Program-made: the position numbers and the translations under genes
In this document: piece after piece, positions 5,968 to 61,921 of the stretch
Numbering within the stretch: the first letter of the stretch is position 1
How the letters are laid out: every line of letters begins with the position of its first letter
Assembly (NCBI GenBank): GCA_003665825.1
Contig: QPFY01000006.1
Location: forward strand, 1,178,001 to 1,242,000
Source of the DNA: Microbotryum silenes-acaulis
Taxonomy: Eukaryota; Basidiomycota; Microbotryomycetes; Microbotryales; Microbotryaceae
Direction: 5' to 3'
Length of the DNA stretch: 64,000 nucleotides
Notes under the pieces: generated by a model
Databases searched by the model: none
The model's input: only the letters and a program-made list of their open reading frames with translations
Told to the model about the DNA's origin: nothing

Positions 5968-8961
5968 ATGTCAGGCGATGTAGCACCTGCGGTTCCCCTG
6001 GCGTCGTCGAGCAGTCTACCAGCACTCGACTTGTGTCGCCTCGCCGACCTCGACGATGCTCCTACCGAAGCTGAGTGGCTCAACCACCTTCTCAAGGCAA
6101 CCATGAGTCACGACAGGGCATCTCAAAGCTCGTCACAAGCCAACCTGGGCTCCCTGGAGGCGTCGCTGGGCAAGGCACTAGCCGCACTCGAGGTCGCGAC
6201 GCACGATACGTCCGCGCTCGTGGACCGCACCATCGACGACATCTCTCGCTCGGTACCTCGACTTGCGTTCGATCTACAGCTCATGCGCGAGAACGCACTA
6301 CTCCTACGCTTTACGCTCGATGGGATCCGGAAACGCGCCGGGACGGGCTCAGGCTTTGGCGAGAACCCCGAGGTCTCATGTGTGATGGAGAAGCTTCGGG
6401 TCTTGGATCTGGCCAAAGCTCGTATGGAGGCTGCCCGGGATGTCTTGCGAGAAGCCGAGAGCTGGAGTACGCTCGAAAGCGAAGTTGCAGGGCTGCTCGG
6501 TGAGCAAGCCTTCGCTAAGGCGGCGGAACGACTCGAAGAGGCCGCGAGGAGCATGGTCGTCTTCCAGAACACGATCGAGTACGAGGCCCGACGCGCTCTG
6601 ATGGTCTCGCTACAGAACCAACTCGAAGCCTCGCTGTCTAGCTCGCTGGTCAGTGCCATCAATACTCGAGACGTCAAGACGTGCAAGTCGTACTATGCCA
6701 TCTTTGGTCAGATCCAGCGCGAAGCCGAGTTCACGGCATACTACTTTGGATCGCGGCGCAGCGCGCTCGTCGATGCATGGGTCAATGCCAACCTCATCGA
6801 TATACCTAATGTGATGATTGAACTTGATGCTGCGAGTACTGCGACATCAACTGCCTCGGCCTCGATCATGTCCGCTTCGACCCCTATCAAGCTCACCTCG
6901 TTCCTCATCAAGTTCTATGGTGACTTGCATGCCCTACTCGCCGAGGAACGCACATACGTGCCTGCGATCTTTCCCGATCCTGCACCGACCATCTCCTCCT
7001 TCGTCTCGACAACTCTTGAAGGTCTCTCGCCCTCCTTGCCTCAGCGCCTCAGTGCCATCGCCGACACGTATGGACCGCTCATCTTGCCCGAGCTCATCCA
7101 AGCTTATCGCGCGACCGAAGACTTTGCTCTCAGCGTCGATCAAATCATCTCCAAGCTCGATCCGTCTTCTGCGACCCCTTTGGCTACCCACGGCAGCTCG
7201 GGAAGTGTCTCAGGAGCTCCGTTCGTATCCTCGCCCGGGCTCGAAGGCAGCGCGCCGGCGACCCCCTCGAAGCGCCACCGAAGACTGTCGAAACGCATGT
7301 CGACGTCCCGGAGAATGGGCTCCCGTTCACTGTCCTTCGGCGGTTCGGCTGTTTCCAATACCGATGGCGCAGGTGTGCCCACAACGGCCAATCACGCGGC
7401 TGTGCGAGCATGGGAGACGGCGATGTTCGAGCCCTTCTTAGATTGGCAGGTCGAGTATCCCGAGCTCGAACGGCAGTACCTCGCATACGAAGTCGCACGT
7501 GTCACGGGACCACCAGGAACGGATGTGATGGGCTATCTCATCGAGGAAGGTGCGGGCGCGTCCTCGGGTTCGAGAGATCAGAAGGGTGGAGAGAAGGGGG
7601 CGCGAGCTCTGTGGGATCTGACATCCAGTGTCTTTTCTCTGATGGAGGACGCGATAAGTCGATCTTCGGCGATGACCCACGGCTATGCTGTAGCGGGTAT
7701 CGTCGAAGTCATTGACGGTCAGCTGGTCGATTTCCTCGACCAGAGAAAGAATGAGCTCAACCGCGCCAAATCCATGGCAGGGCATGCGCGTCGAAGACAA
7801 GGGCTTAGGAGCGAGAATGAGGACGAAGCTGCGTTTGAAGGACTCGAGTACTCGATCGAGGACTGGGGCACGTTCCAGCTTGGTCTAAGTTTGCTCGATA
7901 CGTGTCGTTCGATCACCCACCGGCTGACTTCGTTCGAAAACAAGCTGCAGACTCGGCTGATGATTCTGGCGCAGACGATCCGGGAAGCGAGGGAGGATCC
8001 ATTGCATTATACCATTCCCGGGACGACTCGCGGTGCCATCACATTACTGCGACAGTCAGCTCTGAACTCTGTCGAGCTGGCTCAACTGCTCGAACCGCTC
8101 GAACGACTTCAGGACGCATCGACAGGTCCGCCGGCTCCACCCCTCTCGCTCGCGCTCATGCCCAAGGCTCGATTCGCGACCGTCGAGTTCACGCGTGCGA
8201 CGCAACTATTCCTACATGAGACCATCTTGGCCCCTCTCCTCGCTCACCTCAATGACTACGCCGTACTTCCAACCTGGACCACATCGCAGGATCAGCGACC
8301 CGGAGCCAAAGGCGCGTTCGACTTGGCGATCCCCACCTTCTCGCTCTCCCCCACGGAGACAATCTCGCGGGTCGGCGAAGGTCTTTTCAACCTGCCCCGG
8401 CTCTTCGAAGTCTACGCTGGCGATGATGCCCTCGCCTTTTCGATCGAGACGTTGCCGCACGTCGACGCTGAGGCTCTGCGCGCTCTGCAGCCGCCCTCGC
8501 TCGCTTCGCCCATCAGCCCCGCGCATCGTCCGTCGCTGAGCCGTTCACGAATGAGTGAATCCGTGTCGCTTTCTCCCCCTGCGACGTCGGCCTTCTCCCG
8601 CCGTGTCGCGAGCGTCTCCTTGGTCTCGATGCCGAGCTCTCACTCCCATCTGAGCGCCGAGACGGTCATCTCAACGTGGTTGTCGTCCTTGACGCTATCG
8701 ATCCTGCACCACCTCACGTCCGTCGTGCTACCGACGATGCATCGTCTGTCCAAACATGGGGCCCGGCAACTCGTCAGTGATTTGGACTATATCGTCAATG
8801 TTGCAAGAGCGTTGGATGTTGAAGCAAGCGATGAGCTCGAGGCGTGGAGGGATGCTGCGGCTTTGGAGGAGAAGCCGGGTAATGAGGAGGAGTTGGGGAT
8901 GGACAAGCGCGTGTATGAGAGAGTGGCCAAGATGCGAGGATGGAGAAAGACGGGGGCTTGA
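5968..8961 (+). CDS. Conserved oligomeric Golgi complex subunit 7 (Cog7)
   Basis: Uninterrupted 997-residue frame. The first about 130 residues carry the Cog7 N-terminal signature: a helical segment containing VDRTIDDISRSVPRLAFDLQ and then MRENALLLRF, followed by coiled-coil-rich helices. Cog7 is a subunit of the COG tethering complex, which acts on retrograde transport vesicles at the Golgi and keeps glycosylation enzymes in place. A Ser/Pro/Gly-rich insertion (about residues 400-460) and a Ser-rich stretch near residues 845-890 make it longer than animal Cog7 (about 770 residues), as is common in fungi. The start at 5968 is the first Met of the frame and directly precedes the conserved helices. 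No intron is needed. The preceding 5' region has no other gene; the next gene on the same strand starts 1.7 kb downstream. Confidence 0.85.
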   Translation: MSGDVAPAVPLASSSSLPALDLCRLADLDDAPTEAEWLNHLLKATMSHDRASQSSSQANLGSLEASLGKALAALEVATHDTSALVDRTIDDISRSVPRLAFDLQLMRENALLLRFTLDGIRKRAGTGSGFGENPEVSCVMEKLRVLDLAKARMEAARDVLREAESWSTLESEVAGLLGEQAFAKAAERLEEAARSMVVFQNTIEYEARRALMVSLQNQLEASLSSSLVSAINTRDVKTCKSYYAIFGQIQREAEFTAYYFGSRRSALVDAWVNANLIDIPNVMIELDAASTATSTASASIMSASTPIKLTSFLIKFYGDLHALLAEERTYVPAIFPDPAPTISSFVSTTLEGLSPSLPQRLSAIADTYGPLILPELIQAYRATEDFALSVDQIISKLDPSSATPLATHGSSGSVSGAPFVSSPGLEGSAPATPSKRHRRLSKRMSTSRRMGSRSLSFGGSAVSNTDGAGVPTTANHAAVRAWETAMFEPFLDWQVEYPELERQYLAYEVARVTGPPGTDVMGYLIEEGAGASSGSRDQKGGEKGARALWDLTSSVFSLMEDAISRSSAMTHGYAVAGIVEVIDGQLVDFLDQRKNELNRAKSMAGHARRRQGLRSENEDEAAFEGLEYSIEDWGTFQLGLSLLDTCRSITHRLTSFENKLQTRLMILAQTIREAREDPLHYTIPGTTRGAITLLRQSALNSVELAQLLEPLERLQDASTGPPAPPLSLALMPKARFATVEFTRATQLFLHETILAPLLAHLNDYAVLPTWTTSQDQRPGAKGAFDLAIPTFSLSPTETISRVGEGLFNLPRLFEVYAGDDALAFSIETLPHVDAEALRALQPPSLASPISPAHRPSLSRSRMSESVSLSPPATSAFSRRVASVSLVSMPSSHSHLSAETVISTWLSSLTLSILHHLTSVVLPTMHRLSKHGARQLVSDLDYIVNVARALDVEASDELEAWRDAAALEEKPGNEEELGMDKRVYERVAKMRGWRKTGA

Positions 8962-25464: not shown

Positions 25465-25581
25465 GTAATTGGTGTGTTGTGAATGAGGATTAGCAGGAAG
25501 GCGGTTATCGGTTATTTGGTAGCGTCTGTATTGCCGCAAGGCACAGATCCGCACGCAGAAAAGACGCAGCGCATATCCAAG

Positions 25582-25815
25582 ATGGCTACGACCACGGTGG
25601 ATTCCGGGTCCGCCACTCATCGCGGCCTTATGGGCGACCTGTATGGCAATGTCGACGCCACAAATTGGGGAACGGCCAAGGATCGACTCCAACGGGTGTT
25701 GGAGGGCGATGGCCGGTTCAAGCATGTCACGACCGAACTCAGCGTTGGCCCCGAGCTGCAAGGCCTGAGGCCTTTGCCCGAGGTATTATGGAAGGCGATG
25801 GAGCTTTGGACTTAG
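25582..25815 (+). pseudogene. Copia Gag N-terminus, cut off by the inserted solo LTR
   Basis: Starts [19 protein letters not shown] and matches the first residues of the complete copy ([10 protein letters not shown]...). After SVGPE the frame runs into the inserted LTR and stops at 25815. The rest of the protein resumes beyond the insertion at about 26005 and reads on to 27,850. Confidence 0.8.
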
Positions 25816-26000
25816 TTGAATAGCTTGCGCGCGCCTGAAACCTCCCTTGGCTTTCGCCAGCTCACTGACCGGAGGTTCTAGGTGGGTGCCCCTGTTCTCA
25901 TATGTGTAGTATTGCGAGCTCACTGACAGGAGGTTCTAGTGAATTACTATTGTTTGATCCTGTCTATCGTTCTGGAGCACGGCTGCACGCGGTGCTTCCA
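25757..26000. mobile_element. Solo LTR nested in copia copy 1
   Basis: Compared with the uninterrupted copy, copy 1 has 244 extra bases that begin TGCAAGG and end GCTTCCA (TG...CA). They are flanked on both sides by the same 5 bases CGAGC (25752-25756 and 26001-26005), which occur once in the intact copy. This is the signature of an LTR-retrotransposon insertion followed by LTR-LTR recombination. The insert contains a near-perfect internal duplication of GCTCACTGACnGGAGGTTCT. I find no full-length partner in the window. Confidence 0.85.
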
Positions 26001-26004
26001 CGAG

Positions 26005-27850
26005 CCCGAACAGTCCGAGTTCACCCGTACGCTGGGTGGCTCCACAGTGGCCGACGTAGCCACGTTCCGTACACAACATCGGAACTACCGGCATGACGTC
26101 GACGACCTCAATCAAGCCTTGGCGCAGGCCCGCAACATCTTGTTCGTATGCCTGGGGGAGGCCACGTTCGCGCGCATCGCAGACAAGCCAACGCACGAGC
26201 TGTGGGCGGCCCTCGATAAGGATCTCGGCGCCGCATCCCACGACTTCGCGCGGTCGGAGAAACTCGATGCCCTTTTTCTATACCAAGCCTACGTCGACGG
26301 AGACCCTCTCGACCCTTGGTTGTTGCACTTCAACCGGTTGTTTGTCGATCTCAACGCCGCGCACGTTTCCCGCGACAAGGCCTACCAGCGCGCCAAGATC
26401 GACGGGGTCAAGTACACGCAAGCTGAGTTTGACAAGTGGGTTCCGCCACCTGCGTTGTCGGAAGGCATCCGCATGGACCTCTTGAAGGCGAGGATGCCAC
26501 GGCCTATTGTCACGGTTATCGACGCCCTCGGCCCTCTCCCGTCGCTCAGTGATGTGGAGGGCGCGATTCGTCGGGCGGCGATGTCTCGCTCTTCCGGCAC
26601 CAATGTCGCCGAAGCCCTCGCGGCGAAGACTCAGGGTCGTCGCAGGCGCCCCGCTCGTTCGTCAGGCAAACCGAAGTCCAGTTTTCTCTCGGCTTCGAAG
26701 GTACCGGGTCTCGTGGACAAGTGGCCGCATGGGGTTGCACAGAATGGTCGCCTGAGGCTGGGCCGGTCGCAGTGCAGGAAATGCTACGAGCAGGGCCATC
26801 TTGGCGACGAATGTACCGTTCCCTCGACCGAACTGTCCCGTCGTCGGGTTGCCGTCTTAGCCAAGCACAACATCTCCATCGGCGCGGCCGACGCGATGGC
26901 GCTCGTGGCTGAGTACGGTTCCGACCCATCGGTTGAAGACGACTCTTACGAGAACTATTTCGCCGACGTCGCCCTTGACACCGAAGTCTCTGCGCTGTAC
27001 TTGCACGACGGTCCCCGCTACCTCCTCGACTCGGGGGCGACGCGCCACATGACCACTCGTCGGGATCTCTTGGTCGACTTTCAGCCTTTCACGACGGAGC
27101 GTGTGCGCGTAGTCGGCGCATTCAAGTCCAGCGCCATGGCTGTCGGCAAGGGCACCTTCCGGCTTCACGCCAACGGGGCGCCTCTCGAGCTCCGCGACGT
27201 CCTTCTCGTCCCGGGTCTGTCCGCCGAGCTCGTGTCTCTTGCCAGTCTCATGAAGGATGGGTACCAGCTGTCTGGAATTTGCGACGCCGCGGGCGAACAC
27301 TCTGGTCTCACCGTCTCGGGTCCGGCTTCGAGCCTCACCTTCGCTCTCGATCGCAACCACTACGTTCTCCAGGCGAGTCCGGCCTCACCTCCTCTGGCGG
27401 ATCACCAAGCGCTGACAGCCACCTCCTTGCCTATAGATGTAGTGCTTTGGCATCAGCGTTTGGGTCATCTGTCCTGGGGTCGTTTGGTAGAACTTGCTAA
27501 GTCGGGCGACATTTCCCTCGACATCTCTGCTGTAACCCGGGATCAACTTCGTCTCCTTGATCAGTGCAATGCCTGCTGCTCCGGCAAGGCCGTGTCTGCC
27601 CCCAGTCGTGAGGCTGCCCACCACCCCGCCGACGCACCTTTCGCTCGGGTCTTCGCCGACGTGTGGGGGCCTTCCCCTGTTCCTGCTCTCTCCGGCGTCC
27701 GATATCTGTGCGGTATCACGGATGAATACTCGCGTTTCCGCTGGGCTCGCGGCATTCGGTTCAAGAGCGAGGCTTCGTCCGTACTCAAGGGTTTCGTTGC
27801 GATGTCGAAGATCCAGTATGCTGGCCCGGGAGTGGCGACCTTGCGCACGG
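26005..27850 (+). pseudogene. Copia Gag-Pol fragment (Gag to integrase core), truncated
   Basis: Continues the Gag-Pol of copy 1 after the solo LTR: Gag body, zinc knuckle, protease DSGA motif, HHCC and the first Asp of the integrase core (ADVWGPS), ending just after VATLRT. It is nearly identical to the complete copy, with scattered substitutions (for example NACCSGK for DACCSGK), and is open apart from the insertion. It lacks reverse transcriptase, so it cannot be autonomous. Confidence 0.85.
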
Positions 27851-27851
27851 T

Positions 27852-28013
27852 TGTAATACTCCGTAGTTACTCAAGGCCTGACGCGCGTCTGGCCTTAAGC
27901 CTTGTCGGGAAGTAGACTCTCTCTTCCCTTCTGACCAGTTTATTCTTTGGAATACATACTCGTATCCTGTTACTTGCAAGGCCCCACGACTGGGCCTTAC
28001 ATTTTTTTTTAAC
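27852..28013 (+). repeat. Left inverted arm of fold-back element
   Basis: Reverse complement of 28444-28605. The word CGTATCCTGTT within this arm also pairs with AACAGGATACG at about 28,037, giving an alternative internal stem. Confidence 0.85.
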
Positions 28014-28063
28014 ATTTTTTATTTATTTTTATTTTTAACAGGATACGGTCGCGTAAACGGCGA

Positions 28064-28410
28064 ACAACCTCAGCAGTTGTGTGTGACGGCGACGACCAAG
28101 GTTGTGTGGACAATACGGCGAACGTCTTGCGACGTGTGATGTAGGCGGCGAACAGGGACGGCTCTGTATGACAGACGACGGCTGTCGTGCGGTAAGTGCG
28201 GGTGAGCGACGACGGTCGCGTAAACGGCGAACAACCTCAGCAGTTGTGTGACGGCGAACGACCAAGTCGTGTAAGCAATGCGGCGAACGTCTTGCGACGT
28301 GTGATGTAGACGGCGAACAGAGACGGCTCTGTATGACAAACGACGAGTGTCGTGCGGTGTGTGCGGCGAACGACCTGGGTCGTGTGTACGTCGAACCGGT
28401 TTGAAGCGGT
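28064..28410. repeat. Array of about 13 regularly spaced mini-hairpins
   Basis: Two tandem units of about 165 bp. Each is a series of 4-6 bp stems, usually preceded by GGCGA and followed by GTG. Unit 1 stems start at 28064 (ACAAC/GTTGT), 28092 (ACGAC/GTTGT), 28122 (ACGTC/GACGT), 28152 (ACAGGG/CTCTGT), 28175 (ACGAC/GTCGT) and 28206 (GCGAC/GTCGC). Unit 2 stems start at 28231 (ACAAC/GTTGT), 28258 (ACGAC/GTCGT), 28287 (ACGTC/GACGT), 28317 (ACAGAG/CTCTGT), 28340 (ACGAC/GTCGT), 28370 (ACGAC/GTCGT) and a weaker one at 28395 (ACCG/CGGT). Spacing is mostly 23-30 nt. Loops are 3-8 nt and differ between units in some hairpins. Confidence 0.8.
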
Positions 28411-28443
28411 GACGGAGTGTTCTTGGCGAATTCTTGTATCGGT

Positions 28444-28605
28444 GTTAAAAAAAATAATGTAAGGCCCAGTCGTGGGGCCTTGCAAGTAACAGGATACGAG
28501 TATGTATTCCAAAGAATAAACTGGTCAGAAGGGAAGAGAGTCTACTTCCCGACAAGGCTTAAGGCCAGACGCGCGTCAGGCCTTGAGTAACTACGGAGTA
28601 TTACA
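28444..28605 (-). repeat. Right inverted arm of fold-back element
   Basis: Reverse complement of the left arm, ending GAGTAACTACGGAGTATTACA. The flanking DNA to the right does not match the copia element. Confidence 0.85.
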
Positions 28606-28872
28606 CTCTCCACCACCTAAACCAAACCCTCGTCCTCCCCTTCGCTTGAGATCCTCAAATGCCTCGATCACATCATTGCAATCCCCAAGCCAAGGATACG
28701 TCCTCCGCCGTGAATGGTGCCTTGAGTTCGGGCATGTTCAGGCGCGTGGGTCCGCGATCTGACGCCATCCTTGACGAAAGATGCGGTGGGGCGTCCTTGT
28801 CCGTTGTGGATCCCGGATCCGCGTTGCTCCTGGTTTGCGGTGCCAGGTTGTAAGGTCAGCGCGTCGTCGCGG

Positions 28873-28998
28873 CACCTCGGGCAGACATAAAAAGTACGCC
28901 TCAACAGGCGCGCGCGCAGCGCCCTCCCACGCGCCTTCCAAGCCACAACCTCGGCGGGTTGCAACCTTGCTACCCCAGGTAGCAGATTAGGCCCAGGT
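28873..28998 (+). repeat. Left TIR of KDZ transposon
   Basis: About 124 bp. It matches the reverse complement of 34131-34255, including the GC-alternating CGCGCGCGC segment and the words GTTGCAACC and CTACCCCAGGTAG. Confidence 0.85.
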
Positions 28999-29348
28999 TG
29001 CGCCCAACTCTCTGCTTCGAGTCGATTCTGTGTACACACAACACTCTCACAGCTGCTAGATTGATAAGGAAAGTGCGTAGTAGATGCATTCCTTCCTTCG
29101 TCTTTTTCTCGCATCTTTCGGGTGCCGTCAGAGTCACATGTCCGAAGCGGTCGCGCGGGATTTCGGTCCCGAGATCGAAGGGTCCGAGCACACGCGTTGG
29201 CGGCAGTCGGCCACGCGAGGGACCTTCCACTTGACTTGCCGCCTCAGCTCGTTGCTTCCGCTACAGCTCATTGTAGCGTCGCCATCGACTGTACAGGCCC
29301 CACGGCTCGCGTTCGTCCTCTTGCTCATGCACCTGACTCGGCGTCGCC

Positions 29349-31018
29349 ATGCGGCCGAAGAGAAGATACAAGTCCAAACCGTCGGTCTACAAATTGCAGG
29401 TCACCTTCTGTGCCTCCGAGTCGCGGTGTGCTACGGACGTCGAACGCTTGGCCCAACTAGGGTTCATCTCTTCGACCGCTTTAATGCCGATGACCGCCTT
29501 CTCATTTCGACTGGTCGAGCAGGCCCACGCGAGCTGGAAGGTCAGCCCCCGCGCTCTCACCGGCTATGCGGACGGCCTCAAAGAGTATTACCCCCGTTGT
29601 GGGTGGGGTCGGGGTCACTATACGGGACATCCTTGGGTGAGTTTGGACGCCGCCATCGTTTCAGGGGCACATGCTCAAAGCCTGCCTTCCGCGCATGCAG
29701 GACAAAGACCTTCGGAAGCAACGCGATCGACGAGTACCGCGCTCTCGAAACATGCGAGAAGGACAGCGGGGACCTTCTCGTAGGCACCGTCGATTCGTTC
29801 AAACAAGTGACCCGCGTGCTTCGGGCCAACGTGACTTAATCAACCTTGTCACGACGTCACATTGGATTGCGTGCTTGCATACGACGGCAACTTTCAGCAA
29901 ACGCGTGAGAAAAACTCGAAGCACGACGTCCAAGGAATCGTTCCGGACAATATCTTGGCTGAGGAAGAGGTTCAGGCGATGAAGGCCGAGGTGGAAGCTT
30001 CGGTGCGGCCGACCAAAAAGGTGAGTAATGCCGCTGCATTTGCCTTAATGGGATCGCTTACCTCTACACCCACCCACCCTCGTAGGCGTGCACAGAGTCG
30101 TGGAAGGCTGCCGACGACGGAGCTGGCTCAACCTCGTCACGAGTAGTAAATGCGCCTATACTTTCCTATCATTTGTCATCAGAGGCAGCTCCTGCCAAAG
30201 CTTTTCAAGCGACTGGAGTTCGCCACGAGCGTCTTCCATGCATACGCCCATATCTGGTCCTGCCAAGTCGAGTTCAACCCCCGCCTCATTCCAAACTTCG
30301 ATTGCGGAGCGGGCTACGGTCGCTCATTCTGCGAGGAGTAGCAGCTGTGCGCGCCAAGGATCGAGTCGGTGAGGAGAAAGCGCGGATCGGCGCCGAGGGG
30401 CGGCAAGCTTTGGCTTGGATCGAAGATGAAAAGACTCGTATCACTAGTTGCCAAACACTTTGGATTAACGTGTCGGGTAAGTTTTCGATACAGCGTGCTC
30501 CATATCACCTCTTATGTCGCCCTGACATCTTTCAAACCATCCCAACAGATACCCTTCCTGAATCGATCGACCCAGCTGATGCCAAGTTCATATTCGGCAC
30601 TGAAGATGTTGAAGAGATCCGAGACCGCGCGCTCGTTATACTGGATCGCCGGATGGAGCCTCTTCAGCTGCGTGAATGTTCTTGGTCCCAGAACGACCAT
30701 TTCTTCGATGTTTGGCTCGACACTCGCGGGCAGTCAGAGGGCGATTCCGAGCCCATGCCTCTTGCACTGTCAGAATTTCGTGGTTTACATCAACGATTGA
30801 ACGCGACGGGAAGAAGTGTCAAGAAGGCGAAACATCACCAGCTACCTGCACATAATCGATCGGGAACACGCGGTCCTATGGAGACATCTGGCCTCGACGA
30901 CTCGGCGCGGCCTCCACCGTTGGCCCGTGACGTTCAGCAAGTGCGGGTTATTCAGGCGCAGATGGATATGAGCGACGAAACTCAACTCGCAAAGGAGGTG
31001 GGGCCTTTCTCCGCATAA
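29349..31018 (+). pseudogene. KDZ transposase remnant
   Basis: Segments align in order with the second copy. LQVTFCASESR...LAQLGFISSTALMPMTAFSF ends in EYYPRCGWG. Then come AYDGNFQ (first catalytic Asp, near 29,880), KKAC after an intron, LLPKLFKRLEFATSVFHAYA and WSCQVEFNPRLIPNF. Last is the C-terminal helical region (EEKARIGAEGRQALAWIEDE, then WSQNDHFFDVW). Where copy 2 has the catalytic GEGCERLWSS motif, this copy reads GAGYGRSFCEE and stops. The stretch holding YDIAC and the middle of the C-terminal domain is deleted, and frameshifts occur near 29,840 and 30,330. Non-functional. Confidence 0.75.
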
Positions 31019-32569
31019 CTCCTCGAGCAGGACGGTGAGATGGGCAGCTCTTCGGATGAAAGCTACGGCGATGACTTTGCTGGTCAGGAAGACGAATACT
31101 TCTCGGGCGTACAGACCAGCTTCTGATTTAGATGAATTAGTGGTGCAACTTGATGTTGAAACAATGGACATGGTGTTTGCAAACTAAAGTTGTCTCAATT
31201 GCGGTGGGTGAGAGTGATATCACCGTCTCATAGAGAGAAATATTGTCAGACCTAATCCCTGGGCTGCGCCTGCCTTACTCCTGCCGGGTGACTTGCCGGG
31301 TGACTTTTCAATCAAAGCGCATGCAACTGCTCGAGTACGAAGAATGTCTACCACGTGAAAATGGGTGAGTGGGTTTGATCAATATAGAGAATGTATCTCC
31401 TACCCTCGGACAGGGTTGAATAGCAAAGTTGACGTGTGCGTGCAAGCCCTTCTTCCGAACAAGATGGCTCGGCGGCTCTCTCTGAGGATTCCCGCTCGAA
31501 GGATTCGACTTCCTGCCATGGCGCGGCCAAAGACCCTTTGCACCGATCTCGATCCCTGCTACTGAGACTTGCTCCTGTTTTAAGAAGAGCTTGGTGTCAA
31601 GATCTCAAGATCAAGTCTAGTCTATGCTCGACGGGGGCAGAAGTGCTGACAATTCATTTTAGTGCGGCGAATGCAAGAATTCTCTCTGCTTTGAGCACTC
31701 ACCATGTGGCCTGAGGATTGGCGGCCTACCTCATTGGTGAGAGGGAATGTTTATCAAGTAAAAGGTAGGTATGAGCGGCCATCGATCATGTCTCGGAGTC
31801 AATTGAGGTTTTCGCTCCAAGAGCCTGTTACAAGCCTAAGCCTTCCATGTTTTCACCGAACCTACTATCGAGTTCGACCCACCTCTCATCAAGCACGTAC
31901 TTTGTCGCTACTTCGCTACTTACGACTGATTACCTACGTGTTCCGCTCCGCTTGTGCGTTCAGGGGCTCAGATCAGTTCGCCTTCTTCTGGGAGCGCGCG
32001 CCGCTTGAAGTCAGCCGGCCGGGGGTCGTCACCGTGGCCCAGCAGCTCTGATTGGCACTTTGGCGAAGACCGAGCCCGGCCAGATGCAACCCTTGCCCGT
32101 TCACTTTAGTGCTAATAGATAATAAAAAGATGCTAACATACACTGCAATTAGTGGAAGCGCGTTGCGAATTCTGTTCATTCATTCTTTGCTCAAAGAGTC
32201 ACTTCCGGAAAGCAGACGCTCCGGAGCACTCCAATCTCACTGGGCAATTCAACTCTACATAATACTTCGAAGACAACCCAGAACAAGAAGGATAATGTTT
32301 GTGAGCAGGATTACGTCACTGGCACATCCCACGTCAACAAGAAGAGGTCGGCGGTCTCGAGCGGCCCAGGGAGGCACGAAGGGCAACGAACAATCGCCCT
32401 CTCCGCCTCTAGTCACCAAGAGCCGGATGCATATGAAGCATAACTGTGACATAACTATTGTGGTGGCCTGTGTTGTCCAACGAATTCTGGCCCTTCAACA
32501 GCCAAGATCTCCGCACCGCATGCGCGTCGACGAGTCTGGCTGGCGCTGAGAGCTCGGCCATCGTCACCT

Positions 32570-33695
32570 CACTCGCTTTCCTCGTCGGAGCTCGTGTTCC
32601 GAGTCCGCCGGTCAGCATCGCTGTCGCCGCCTTCATCGCCGTCGGCCATTTCCTGGCCTGCACTTGACCCGATTACCTCTTCCTCCAGCCTGAAGCTCAG
32701 CTCGCCTGCACGCAGCAATGGGATCCAACAACTTAAGCTTGCCACTCGGGCTTCGGAAATCCGCTTTGCGAAGGAGCGCGCCGCGCTGAACAATGATTCT
32801 GGCGTTGTCCCTGAGGGCCTTTACGTCATAGACGGTCTTGGGCGATTGGATCTTCTCGCCGTCCAGCACGGAGCGTCGGCGCAGCGCGGACTCTGAAGAC
32901 AGCGAGCCGGGTCAAAATTAGGCACCGTGTATGGAAGAGTAGGCAGGCTGCACTTCTTGTACTCACGGAACAGTTCCTTGAGGATGATGCTGTACCATTG
33001 GCATTTGGTCTCAACGTTCTTGTCGGCCACGGGTGCGTTCCAAGCTGTGCGCAGATATTCGCTGATACATCCCTCCCTCCTGATGCGCGGCCTCCCTCCT
33101 CGTCTTGGGAAACTTGTGCGGCCCGCGACTGTTGGCGATCGCGAGCGGAAGGTGCAGTATTTGGCAAACCTGCCGCGTCAAAGACAATACCCGTGCCGTC
33201 AGGATTGTTCCCTCCTTGTTCGACCATGCTTGCGGGATTGTTGCTTGCTGGCGGAGCTAGATACGGGCCATCGATGCGTCCAGGATCGGGGAACGTGGGA
33301 CGGTAAACTGGTTGGTTGGACGAAGCAGATCCCGGAGACGATTGATAGTTGTACGACGCAGGATTCGAGATGGCCGTTACGCCAGCGGAAGTGGACGCTG
33401 AATCGGGTGCACGACGGTGTAACGTCAGAACAGACCGATGCTGTACGCGATCGACGCGACGGCCACCCACGAACCCGAATAGTCGTTATATGCGGACTGG
33501 TTGGGAGTCCAAGGCGAGGTGCGCGACTCGTACCCAGAGGCAGCATATGAACCTATGTGTCAGATGTGATCGTGAGCCGGTAGTCCAGTCAGTGCACTCG
33601 TGTCGATCGGCGGCAAACATACTGCTGTTCATCGCCGGAGCGCCAAACGTTGGCTGCGATTCGGGAGGTAGTTAAGTTGATTGGATTGACTCATC
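32570..33695 (-). pseudogene. Second reading frame inside KDZ transposon, function unknown
   Basis: On the minus strand, opposite to the transposase, a possible start MSQSNQLNYLPNRSQ lies near 33,695. Protein-like stretches follow: a Pro/Ser/Asn-rich part, then WNAPVADKNVETKCQWYSII, an intron with GTGAGT...TTCAG, then SVLDGEKIQSPKTVYDVKAL and RDNARIIVQRGALLRKADFR. Frames are broken between the segments. Some KDZ transposons carry accessory genes (TET/JBP dioxygenases are the known case), but I do not see an HxD...H dioxygenase motif here. The family is unrecognised. Confidence 0.4.
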
Positions 33696-34130
33696 GAGAT
33701 AGGAGCAGCAGAAGTATGACTGATCCGGTGTTTCGAAGTGGGCGTTCGTTTCAGACTGTCGCAAGGTGACGGATGCTCATTGTATAGTTCGTTACTTCGT
33801 ATACGTAGTAGGGGGCGATTGGGCAAAGCAGAAGAATGGGCGGTATGCGCGAGCGCGACGCGTCGCCGCCATCTCCAGCGTCTCCGGAGTCGTGACGCGT
33901 CGACGTCCGGGCCAGTCCCGGCCCCAATTGTTCCGCGCGACCCGTGCCGAATCACGTGTTCGAGGTAGAGCGCCTGTACAGCTTGCAGAGGACAACAATA
34001 ACTCTCGAAAAATATCCAAAAATCCGAATACACTATTTTTCGCCGACTGCGCCTTTGTTTCCAGGTTTTCCATGGAGTTGTAGTGGGAGTGAACGTCTCG
34101 GCAACTCGACATTGAGGAGGGCATACCTGA

Positions 34131-34255
34131 CCTGGGCCTAATCTGCTACCTGGGGTAGCAAGGTTGCAACCCGCCGAAATTGTGGCTTGGAAGGCGCGTG
34201 GGAAGGCGCTGCGCGCGCGCCTGTTGAGGCGTACTTTTTATGTCTGCCCGAGGTG
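34131..34255 (-). repeat. Right TIR of KDZ transposon
   Basis: Reverse complement of the left TIR, ending GCAGACATAAA...CGAGGTG. It lies 399 bp upstream of the DAHP synthase start codon, so the element may sit in or near that gene's promoter. Confidence 0.85.
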
Positions 34256-46282: not shown

Positions 46283-52707
<6,425 letters not shown>

Positions 52708-57907: not shown

Positions 57908-60900
57908 ATGTTCGGCCGTCGTCGTCGCCCTGGACAGATCAGGCTGCCCAAGTTGAGGCCCCAAGACATGGAAGATCACCCTAGTGCGCGCCGGGCTCCC
58001 GGCCACGTGAAGATCAAAATCTACGGAGGCGGTCAAGTCGAGATTGGCAAAAACCCACCCCGACGCACAGCAGCAACAGTAGCAGCATCGGCATCAGCAT
58101 CAGCATCAGCATCAGTATCAACTCCGAATCCTCCTCAGCTGGCGGCACCCTTCATCGACTCGGCATTGGCATTCGCTGGCGACGCGTCGGATCCTGGTGA
58201 TGACTTCGGGCTAGGTGAAGAAGACGGAGAAACATATCGATATGAACCAGACGGTGGGGCTATGTCCGAGGATGATGGTGGATTCGAGCAAGATTTTCAT
58301 CATGTCACGTCTCCTTTCCTTGAACCCTGCCCATTCGAGATCTACGAGTCGCAAGACGTCGAGCAGATGACGCTCGACCAGCCCAGAAGCGAACTCGCCC
58401 CTTCCTTCACCCCCGCACACACACGCGAAAGGGTGAAAACGACATATCTCTCTTTTCTTACGCGTGAGGCAAGACTGCGCAAGCTCGAACGCCCTCGACT
58501 CTTCGTACAATATCAGTCATTTGTGATGGGCAGCAAGTGGCGACTCAATCCGCGCATCATCGAGGCCGAGGATGTGGAGAGCGGCAGCCCCGTGTTCACG
58601 ATCGCTGACAGGGTGGACCCGCGGCCGTGTGCGTGTGACCATACCAAAAACCGACACATTCTGGTACATGGTGCCACCAGTCGTGAGTACATCCGAATCT
58701 GCTGCCCCCTTGTATTTCTATGGAATGCTGATAGCTCAATTGATTTATATCGTCATCGCCACCCCTTGTCAAAGGCTTACTCCTCGAGGTATCCTTCTGT
58801 CCGCTATCCGACACCGCCAACCCCTGCATCACATACGCCGAACGACTGGCCAACATAGGCCTCATGGGTGCAACTGCCTCGAATCCATTGTCTGCATTCA
58901 CATTTCAGGTCTTACAGCTTGTCGAATCTGGCTGGGCTGCTGATCCTTCATCAGTTGATGGGATGGCCCAAGGAATGGATGACTACTACGAAAGATGCGG
59001 GTGGGGAGATTCGGGAGCCCTTTCATCTCATCCCTTTGTTAGTCAAAAGCGAAAGCGGACTCCAGCGCGTAACATGATTCCTATCCTCGTGGAGCGGACC
59101 TGCACTCATCTTGCCTGTGTGCAAATATTTCACAGGATCGCGAACCTAGAAAACAATGGCAACGAGCACTCGACGAGTTCCGAGCACTAGCCGCCTACGA
59201 GGCCGATTTCACCGATCGCCTGCTCAACATTAAGGATGCATACGCCTACAAGTGCCCTGCCTGCTTCGGACCAACGCATTTGAACCAGCCGAACCAGGCA
59301 CCCAAGTTCGATCATTTGATCGCAATTGACGGGAACTTTCAGCAATGGCGCAACCAAGCGGCCAAACACGACCCGCAAGCCACCTTACCGGACTTATTCA
59401 TCAACCCGACAGAATTATCCGAGATGAAGGAGGCGGTCGAGAAGACGACAACTCCGGCCAAGAAGGTAAGTCGTCGTTGAGCCTGTGATAGCGCCCCAGT
59501 ATGTGTAGTCCTCATGCTATGATGACCTCCCTCGCAGGCTTGCACAGAATCGTGGAAAGCTGCAGACGACGGCGCAGAGAAGATATGGGCGGGCAAGAGC
59601 GACACCGGCCTTGTGGCTTGCGTGTGTCGGCATGATGTTGTTCTCAAAATGGTCAATCTAGTGAAAAGCGGGGAAAAGTACGTACAACTACCCTGTGCTC
59701 ACGACCTAGATGGCGTTCACAACGTGATTGCGCGTATACTGATCCCATGGCTGGTGACCGCTCCACATTGCAGACTATACTATGCACTGGCTCTGATCAA
59801 GCACGTCGCGGAACGAATGAGGCCCGAAGCCAGAATTGGGGTCTTGTACGACATTGCCTGCAACCTGAAGCATCACATTCAGAAGGTGAGCGGGCCATCA
59901 TCTTGTGGCACGAGATCGACGCGACCGAAGGCATCATTTCTCACCACTTCGCTGCATGTCTCTAGAGGGAATTATTACCTGAATTGGCCCCACGTCTCGA
60001 ATTCGCTACAAGTGTCTTCCACGCTTTTGCGCACCAGTGGTCCTGTCAAATCGAGTTCAATCCTCAGCTCATACCCAACTTCGGCTGCACCGACGGCGAA
60101 GGATGCGAACGTCTCTGGAGCTCTCTCCGCTCCCTTATCCCGATCAACCGTCCATCGACACGCTCTCATCGCTTGGACAATGTGACCCGGAGATAGATCG
60201 AGCTCAATCGCTCCAGCGTGGATGATCTCGGTGAGCGTCGCCGTTTCAGGATACATCGAAGGTGCCTGGAACTCAACACCCGTTGCTTTAGGTTACTGGA
60301 TGCATCGGAAGCACGCGCGCGCCGAAGTGAAGCTGAGTCTAGCTCAAGCACGACTCAATCAGGTGAAAGATAGTGACCCACGATGGACGGAGTCGGCGCT
60401 GCTCCTTGAGTGGAAGGATCAACGTACTGCGCAAGCGGCAAAAACAACCGCAGAACAAGCCCAACAAAATCAAACCTTGCGCTTGGAGATGTATGCTATA
60501 CTCATCGAGCTATACGAGCTGGACTTTTCCATGTGCGTACTTTGGCATCATAGGTGTTCTAAGATACTGATGCGCGACTGCTCGTGCTCATGTGACAGGT
60601 TTGATTCGCGCGAGAATGGTGACCCTGCGATTCAAGCAAGTCAGGAGGCGAAGCGTCTCGCCATCTTGGCAAGATTTGAAGACAGGACCGCGGATCAGGA
60701 CCGAGCCACGGTCTTGGGTGAGCCTGCCTCAGACCTGCATCATTGCTTCTGAAGCTCCAGCTGAGACAGTATGATTTTCACCTCTCAGACTTCAAAAATG
60801 TGTGCTCTTGCTCGATCGCTCTGCGTCATCTTCGATCCGAGGTGATCGCCTTTCAAATGAGCCAAGTCAAACTCAATTCCTTGCGCCGAGGCAGAGGAGG

Positions 60901-61921
60901 GGCGACACTCGGGCAGAGGAACGTCGCCAAGATCAAAGCAATGGGGTCCAAAGGTCAATATCAAGTCGAGAAGGCCATGAAGTTGTACAATGCCGCGGTC
61001 GAGAAGTTTCGAGCTGAGGCCAGTGCCTCTTTTCAGTCCATATCGCAAGGGCTCCAGCTCGCCGATGGTTTCCAATCAATTATGTCAAAGCAGGAGACGG
61101 ATGCGTTCTGGCAGGATGGATTCTTCACTCACTTCAAGGCCGAGTGGGCGATCAACCCACTAGTGAAGGAGGGTATTCAAGCGCTGCAGTCTAAGACCCG
61201 CGCGCAAGAGGAGATGCAGCACCTCGGCACCGAGGTTCGACAAGCCCTGGCCTGGCTTGAGGACGCAGTCAACAACTTAGCGGCAGTCCGAGAAAGGTGG
61301 CTATCCGAGCATGGTGAGTACAAGATCTTTCGCGTATACCTATCTGTTACTTGAACCTGATGATAAGTGACGAATTCTTGCAGCATCCATGGAAGATCAG
61401 GCAGCCATGCAGGCTTTGCCGGGTCAGATTACGCAATGACACGAGTCACGTGTCTCACGAGCACTCTCCGCAAAACCCATAACGTTCGTAGGCTCATCAA
61501 AAAGTGGTCGCGCAATGACTATTTTTCCTACGTGTGGTATCATACTGCTGAGGTGGACGAACGGGTACCCGAAGCCCTTGGCCACGTCGGGGGGTCTTTC
61601 AAGGCGCACGCGAACAAACGATTACCTCGAGCCAGGATTGGCGCCGAAGGCTTCGCCACGGTCGAAGACCGCCATCTAACGAACTATCCCTCGGCCCAGA
61701 CGCCTTCTGCAGGGGTGACAGACCCGGAGGCTCGACAGATCAACAGAGCGCTTGACATGATCGACCAGGCGGAGTTGGACAAGTCACTTCAATCACTTGT
61801 TTTATCACTTGACCAAGCACCCCACTTCGACTTATGTGAAGTAGACCCTATGGATGACGACGACGATCCAATTTTAGATGAATACATAGTAGACCATATC
61901 TGTGTTATGAACATGTCGTAA
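57908..61921 (+). pseudogene. KDZ-type transposase (copy 2), nearly complete, two lesions
   Basis: At least ten exons with good GT-AG sites, beginning MFGRRRRPGQIRLPKLRPQD: 57908-58682, 58775-59037, 59136-59465, 59538-59677, 59774-59885, 59966-60230, 60292 onward. Order: acidic N-terminus with a poly-Ala/Ser run, CACDHTKNRHILVHG, SFCPLSD, EYADFT-type helices with CPACFGPTH, IAIDGNFQQW (first catalytic Asp), a VCRHD motif, GEKLYYALAL, LYDIAC (second Asp), VFHAFAHQWSCQ, DGEGCERLWSSLR (catalytic Glu), HRL, then a long helical C-terminus. This is the KDZ DDE-like transposase plan. Lesions: an in-frame TAG at 60194-60196 just after HRLDNVTRR, with conserved-looking ELNRSSVDDL beyond it, and a frame break before 61437, after which RRLIKKWSRNDYFSYVWY resumes in another frame. 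It is probably inactive unless these are assembly errors. Confidence 0.75.

Follow-up and report, generated by a model that had tools for sequence, protein, structure and literature searches.

The leaders of LTR retrotransposons carry packaging, dimerization and priming signals. In alfalfa mosaic virus and the ilarviruses, the coat-protein binding regions are hairpins split by a constant short single-stranded word. PMC10886601 describes the TRIMs (Helenus, Cassandra, Ajax) as non-coding elements of less than 1 kb with short LTRs, 5-bp duplications and a polypurine tract, which leave solo LTRs and are presumed to be mobilized in trans; it places Helenus in fungi, animals and plants, and reports tRNA-bearing TRIMs in rusts and the absence of Helenus from Microbotryum.

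The window analysed here is a stretch of 64,000 nucleotides of Microbotryum silenes-acaulis DNA on contig C6; a COG7 protein within it (5968-8961) is 98% identical to a M. saponariae protein and 89% identical to one of M. intermedium, which makes the host an anther-smut fungus near M. saponariae. Near its middle lies an array of mini-hairpins (28045-28410), which we hold with good confidence, judging from sequence comparison, to be the untranslated leader of a non-autonomous, TRIM-like miniature LTR retrotransposon with a Ty3-type element as its likely helper. No description of a hairpin-array leader, or of such a miniature LTR element in Microbotryum, was found in the open-licence literature searched, and no matching paper on packaging stem-loops or inverted LTRs was found there.

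The hairpin array and its setting in the window

In its sense orientation the element lies on the minus strand, where the array reads as about seven distinct, partly doubled mini-hairpins in the frame CACAC-stem-loop-stem-UCGCCG; on the plus strand this is the GGCGA-hairpin-GTG frame as a first-pass annotation of this DNA had it. Hairpins were counted as non-overlapping perfect stems with loops of 3-8, and 500 dinucleotide shuffles of the array served as control. With stems of at least 5, the array holds 10 hairpins (one of the ten, at 28163-28175, is an off-register alternative) against a shuffle mean of 2.4 (sd 1.3, max 7), and none of the 500 shuffles reached 10, so that the row of hairpins is real and the shuffled control named earlier as its refuter never matched it. 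With stems of at least 4 there were 13 hairpins against 6.8 (max 12; 0/500 reach 13), and with stems of at least 6 there was no excess in the array (1 vs 0.7; 267/500 reach 1). Among 348 blocks of 366 nt taken along the window, the two richest (9 hairpins each) both overlapped the array; the next block had 6, and the mean was 1.6. The start-to-start steps between the ten hairpins fall at 23-30 nt in 6 of 9 cases. A 165-bp tandem duplication, which had been overlooked, covers 28045-28366 (TRF, 89% matches; halves aligned), and because of it the approximately 13 hairpins reduce to about seven distinct ones, partly doubled: ACGAC/GTCGT (three times), ACAGAG/CTCTGT, ACGTC/GACGT, ACAAC/GTTGT and GCGAC/GTCGC on the minus strand. 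The design of a constant frame with varying palindromes stands, and these variable stems are an unusual feature of the array. A search of the window against Rfam gave nothing at gathering score.

Reading along the minus strand, a 148-bp LTR (TGTAATAC...CCTTACA; 28458-28605) is followed directly by a T-run leader start, TTATTTTTTTTAACACCGATAC (28436-28457), at the position expected of a primer-binding site, and then by the array. On the other side of this LTR are the polypurine tract GGTTTAGGTGGTGGAGAG (28606-28623, minus strand), identical in the Ty3-type element at C6:591888, and the internal 3' region of the miniature element (28624-28872, minus strand), which is 98-99% identical in the copies on contigs C17 and C2. 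A second, inverted LTR copy of 150 bp (27852-28001, plus strand) lies beyond the other end of the array, with A+T-rich sequence (28002-28044) connecting the two; the two arms enclosing the array are 99-100% complementary. The left copy starts at the break (27850) of a Copia element (25512-27851, plus strand) truncated at the LTR, which over 25998-27850 is 97.6% identical to 48133-49985. On the right, a DNA transposon (28873-34255) with 126-bp terminal inverted repeats (28873-28998 and 34130-34255) cuts the internal part at 28873, with no clear target duplication; the locus is thus a nest of fragments. The array had been taken for a free-standing element, with the inverted LTRs, the tandem duplication and the surrounding mobile elements passed over; it belongs instead to a leader, and the window copy is a rearranged fragment with inverted LTRs, probably dead.

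The DNA transposon is KDZ-like only through translated similarity to 58825-61546, a relative that carries a KDZ domain; two of its own frames were scanned and gave no Pfam match. Its 126-bp inverted-repeat sequence recurs in the genome. The window also contains a Copia element (47686-52707) with identical 215-bp end repeats, GTTAT on both sides and one long frame with gag-pre-integrase, integrase and RT, which is probably a recent insertion.

Copies of the LTR and of the array in the genome

A 754-bp query was searched against the organism's own genome (29.9 Mb, 88 contigs), giving at least 86 match rows, mostly of LTR sequence in both orientations; 40 of the 42 candidates were scored. The LTR family is thus dispersed in the genome. 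Misses included, 36 full-length LTR copies were examined, after 13 repeat loci had been dropped and 5 partial rows set aside. Target duplications of 5 bp flank 21 of the 36, corresponding to about 15 distinct sites by their flanks, several copies being segmental duplicates; 8/36 are preceded by the polypurine tract GGTGGTGGAGAG, and 4/36 are followed by the T-run leader. Because of these duplications, the tract upstream and the T-run leader downstream, the sequence of approximately 150 bp (TGTAA...TTACA) is identified as an LTR; it is short and has TG...CA ends, and the C17 element lies between GTGAG and GTGAG. The solo LTRs at L026, L027 and L031 have near-identical inverted flanks about 1.2-4.3 kb apart and represent inverted segmental duplications. 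A second group of elements (L045, L034, L037 and L038) has the same LTR and polypurine tract and, about 360 bp before the tract, ends in what by eye resembles the C-terminus of a Gag, CCHC zinc knuckle included; this is possibly a gag-bearing non-autonomous relative.

The array is present at four loci (the window and one each on C17, C2 and C26), in each case beside the LTR or the internal part. The C17 copy runs as follows: GTGAG, the LTR (147 bp), T8-AACACCGATAC, the hairpins and about 72 nt, then the internal 3' part, the polypurine tract, the first 33 bp of the LTR and GTGAG. The sequence thus shows an element of 806 bp inside one GTGAG duplication, in which LTR and T-run are followed by the hairpins and the internal part, and these by the polypurine tract ahead of the 3' LTR and by the LTR start; its 3' LTR is cut short after 33 bp, which are fused to their reverse complement. 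The longest ORF that starts and ends inside it is 99 aa, in antisense, so that the element is taken to be without coding capacity, as TRIMs are. In the C2 copy the leader start is followed by hairpins, internal part, tract and an LTR that is truncated; a 5' LTR is not recognizable there, and its array is without two pieces found elsewhere, which we read as repeat-mediated deletions. The C26 copy, like that in the window, is rearranged, and in both the array adjoins an inverted LTR. Two complete direct LTRs were found in no copy. The only Rfam match of the C17 element, to an lncRNA, stayed below threshold (15.6 bits, E 0.27) and is put down to chance; the polypurine-LTR junction gave 0 matches in IMG/VR.

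The likely Ty3-type helper and the primer site

The polypurine tract followed by TGTAA occurs at 12 genome sites, 11 of them exact. One exact site, C6:591888, lies in an element whose open frame passes the Pfam cut-off for integrase H2C2 and for a Tf2-1-like SH3 domain, while its integrase core (rve) falls below it; it is because of the H2C2 and SH3 domains that the element is labelled Ty3-type. The site with one mismatch, C5:1536343, belongs to the same LTR family. Other family members carry another tract ahead of the LTR, L084 and L085 agreeing with it in the final 14 bases alone, TAGGTGGTGGAGAG. On C8, a member with LTRs about 4.8 kb apart and the 5-bp duplication TCAAG has a leader that starts C-T10-CACAACGGTC, of which 18 of 23 aligned bases are identical to the leader start of the miniature element. 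Eight of these 18 identities are the T-run, and 20/500 shuffles were as good; with the T-run removed there was no similarity (362/500 shuffles as good). We take the leader-start match as moderate support, at the level of sequence, for a connection between the two. The T-run junction was present in 6/16 small stretches around helper-type LTRs.

The Ty3-type element resembles the miniature element in the same 18-base tract (exact in one copy and with a single mismatch in another), in the T-run leader start, in LTRs ending TGTAA/TTACA and in a 5-bp duplication; it differs in being coding, in its LTR (TGTAAGGCCC...GTATTACA; 162-225 bp in the six copies measured) and in its 84-nt leader, which has one clear short hairpin and no array. 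It is considered the likely helper because of the shared tract and the 18/23 leader bases, which suggest that this genome's own Ty3-type element may supply the machinery for copying the miniature RNA and integrating it. The helper leader was rejected as the source of the array, there being no similarity past the first 23 aligned bases. At L043 (reverse strand, about 1509-1915), a Ty3-type 3' LTR is succeeded by a short stretch with a T-run and then by an LTR-like sequence in inverted orientation, a layout resembling the LTR, leader and inverted LTR of the window.

Relative to the shared tract, the LTR ends look swapped between the two elements: the start of the miniature LTR resembles the reverse complement of the helper end, and its end that of the helper start. 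Over 30 bases the swapped arrangement scored 16 and 29, and the unswapped one 11 and 4. Two points speak against a swap: the shared stretch is itself nearly palindromic, and free local alignment does about equally well in the same orientation (25; 1/500 shuffles) and reversed (22; 4/500). Copies with inverted LTRs, as in the window and on C17, are a possible route to such a swap.

The TGG that a tRNA primer site should show is absent from the miniature and helper leaders, where the T-run stands instead, an unusual feature; the Copia element at 47686 has TGG after its LTR (TGGTAGCG). When the leader was compared with 31 of the 46 listed tRNA genes, the best match was 11 nt with one mismatch, as against a mean of 10.5 (max 14) for shuffled leaders, and the Copia control was equally unmatched, which marks this set of tRNAs as insufficient. 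Self-priming between leader and LTR was also considered and is not supported (55/1000 shuffles as good). If true, a T-run start in both helper and parasite would represent an unusual start of reverse transcription.

Folding and possible function of the hairpins

As a whole, the array strand folds no better than its shuffles (minus strand z +1.1, 88/100 as good; plus strand z +1.75, 97/100); when pairing was limited to a span of 18 nt the array beat them (z -2.3 in sense, 2/200; z -2.1 in antisense, 3/200), and with a 30-nt span the excess was gone. Covariation was counted on 10 of the 12 units (8 distinct), H3 and H3d being omitted because alignment A1 placed the six-base-pair unit H3 out of register; an earlier version used 8/12, with H4d and H5d omitted too (H5d has a broken pair), and from those 8 units model R1 was built. 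Pairing is present in 39/40 cells and 3/5 pairs change on both sides, a result matched by 1/500 shuffles and abolished when the stem partners were slid out of register, though the test is biased towards structure because the units were found through their pairing. The number of further pair types was not unusual (69/500 shuffles reach it). A RIP-like process that changes TCG to TTG is described for Microbotryum in two papers (PMC5381629, PMC10502011), and the double change in H6 (G-C to A-U) could be two such hits rather than selection. The other two double changes (A-U to U-A and A-U to G-C) are not explicable by RIP.

Comparison between array copies is a mild test. Every stem pair is kept in 25 of the 28 hairpins across five array segments, and the remaining three contain four substitutions, two of RIP type, all of which give A.C in sense and G.U in antisense; this pattern, if anything, favours an antisense RNA. 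Homologues whose stems lose pairing freely had been named as a refuter; the stems are largely intact, and the excess of their conservation over the remaining array is not significant (Fisher p = 0.093, with distinct events entered by hand as 4 stem events in 72 sites and 17 others in 120, after five H5 positions, 191 and 193-196, and three edge positions, 243-245, were set aside as alignment artefacts). The raw changes against C17 were, for stems, loops and linkers respectively, 4/72, 3/31 and 7/89 in the proximal part of the window array, 4/60, 4/27 and 7/67 in its distal part, 2/60, 0/27 and 0/63 in C2, and 4/43, 4/19 and 5/60 in C26. A hairpin-unit model gave 13 matches in the window at E up to 10; ten fell within the array, and the three outside had E values of 0.04, 0.09 and 3.4. 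On nine loci it recovered the arrays in C17, C2 and C26, and at E up to 1 found nothing in the helper leader (L083) or in five other loci. Genome-wide, a pattern for one of the stem types, allowed at most 3 mismatches, occurred at 23 sites (control 2); 8 of them belong to the arrays already described, and the other 15 are scattered without forming a further cluster.

Since leaders carry signals for packaging, dimerization and priming, of which a gene-less parasite would have the greatest need, the hairpins are read here as a repeated recognition signal. Tentatively, and at rather less than even confidence, we suggest a multiplied cis-acting RNA signal, likeliest for recognition by helper Gag (packaging) or for reverse transcription. 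The constant single-stranded words between the hairpins (UCGCCG / CACAC) would be the points of contact, the stems would be spacers free to vary, and the array would lengthen and shorten through slippage between the constant words. It is a more doubtful proposal that the parasite multiplies the signal to compete for helper particles and that both elements prime on the U-run (for instance from a poly(A) end) rather than from tRNA. The first-pass annotation came near the mark in offering a structured RNA or a transposition signal, but had not seen the setting of LTRs and nearby mobile elements.

The main rival to a recognition signal is a leader array without function: in a decaying family, slippage and snap-back of the reverse transcriptase would have left something like a minisatellite, its perfect palindromes having arisen via template switching. 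The 165-bp tandem duplication, the two C2 gaps read as repeat-mediated deletions, the snap-back palindrome at the C17 3' LTR, the inverted LTRs in the window, the existence of only four array loci and the stem conservation (p = 0.09) are all consistent with this; the two double stem changes outside the reach of RIP, with the frame kept, and the 25/28 hairpins intact in five segments argue against it. We regard it as somewhat improbable, and yet a substantial possibility. The first-pass annotation also allowed for protein-binding palindromes; that a protein of the host or of the element binds them as DNA, in an enhancer or silencer, is unlikely: near-regular spacing and a constant flanking word would suit such sites, but the stem sequences change while pairing stays, which is unexpected for sites in double-stranded DNA, and it is the linker that is constant. 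A DNA transposon or MITE bounded by terminal inverted repeats of about 150 bp, as the two complementary window arms might imply, is a highly improbable reading given that the 150-bp unit alone has 5-bp duplications elsewhere (21/36) and a polypurine tract upstream (8/36), and that LTR, leader, internal part and tract lie inside one duplication on C17.

If the hairpins are recognition sites, a fungal retroelement would have a natural RNA packaging signal in several copies, and parasite-helper competition could be put to the test; if neither this nor the unusual start of reverse transcription holds, Microbotryum still has a miniature LTR element whose leader is unusual. The likeness to alfalfa mosaic virus and the ilarviruses, in the regions bound by their coat proteins, is one of layout only, these being unrelated RNA viruses. 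With the TRIMs, the miniature element shares a size below 1 kb, short LTRs, 5-bp duplications, the polypurine tract, the absence of a coding region, solo LTRs and presumed mobilization in trans; it differs in a leader whose hairpins vary in their stems while their frame stays constant, and in which no tRNA-type primer site was seen, and it differs from Helenus, whose LTR is tRNA-like, in that no tRNA was found in the window. The TRIM-like element is of a known kind, and the variable-stem hairpin leader is an unusual part of it.
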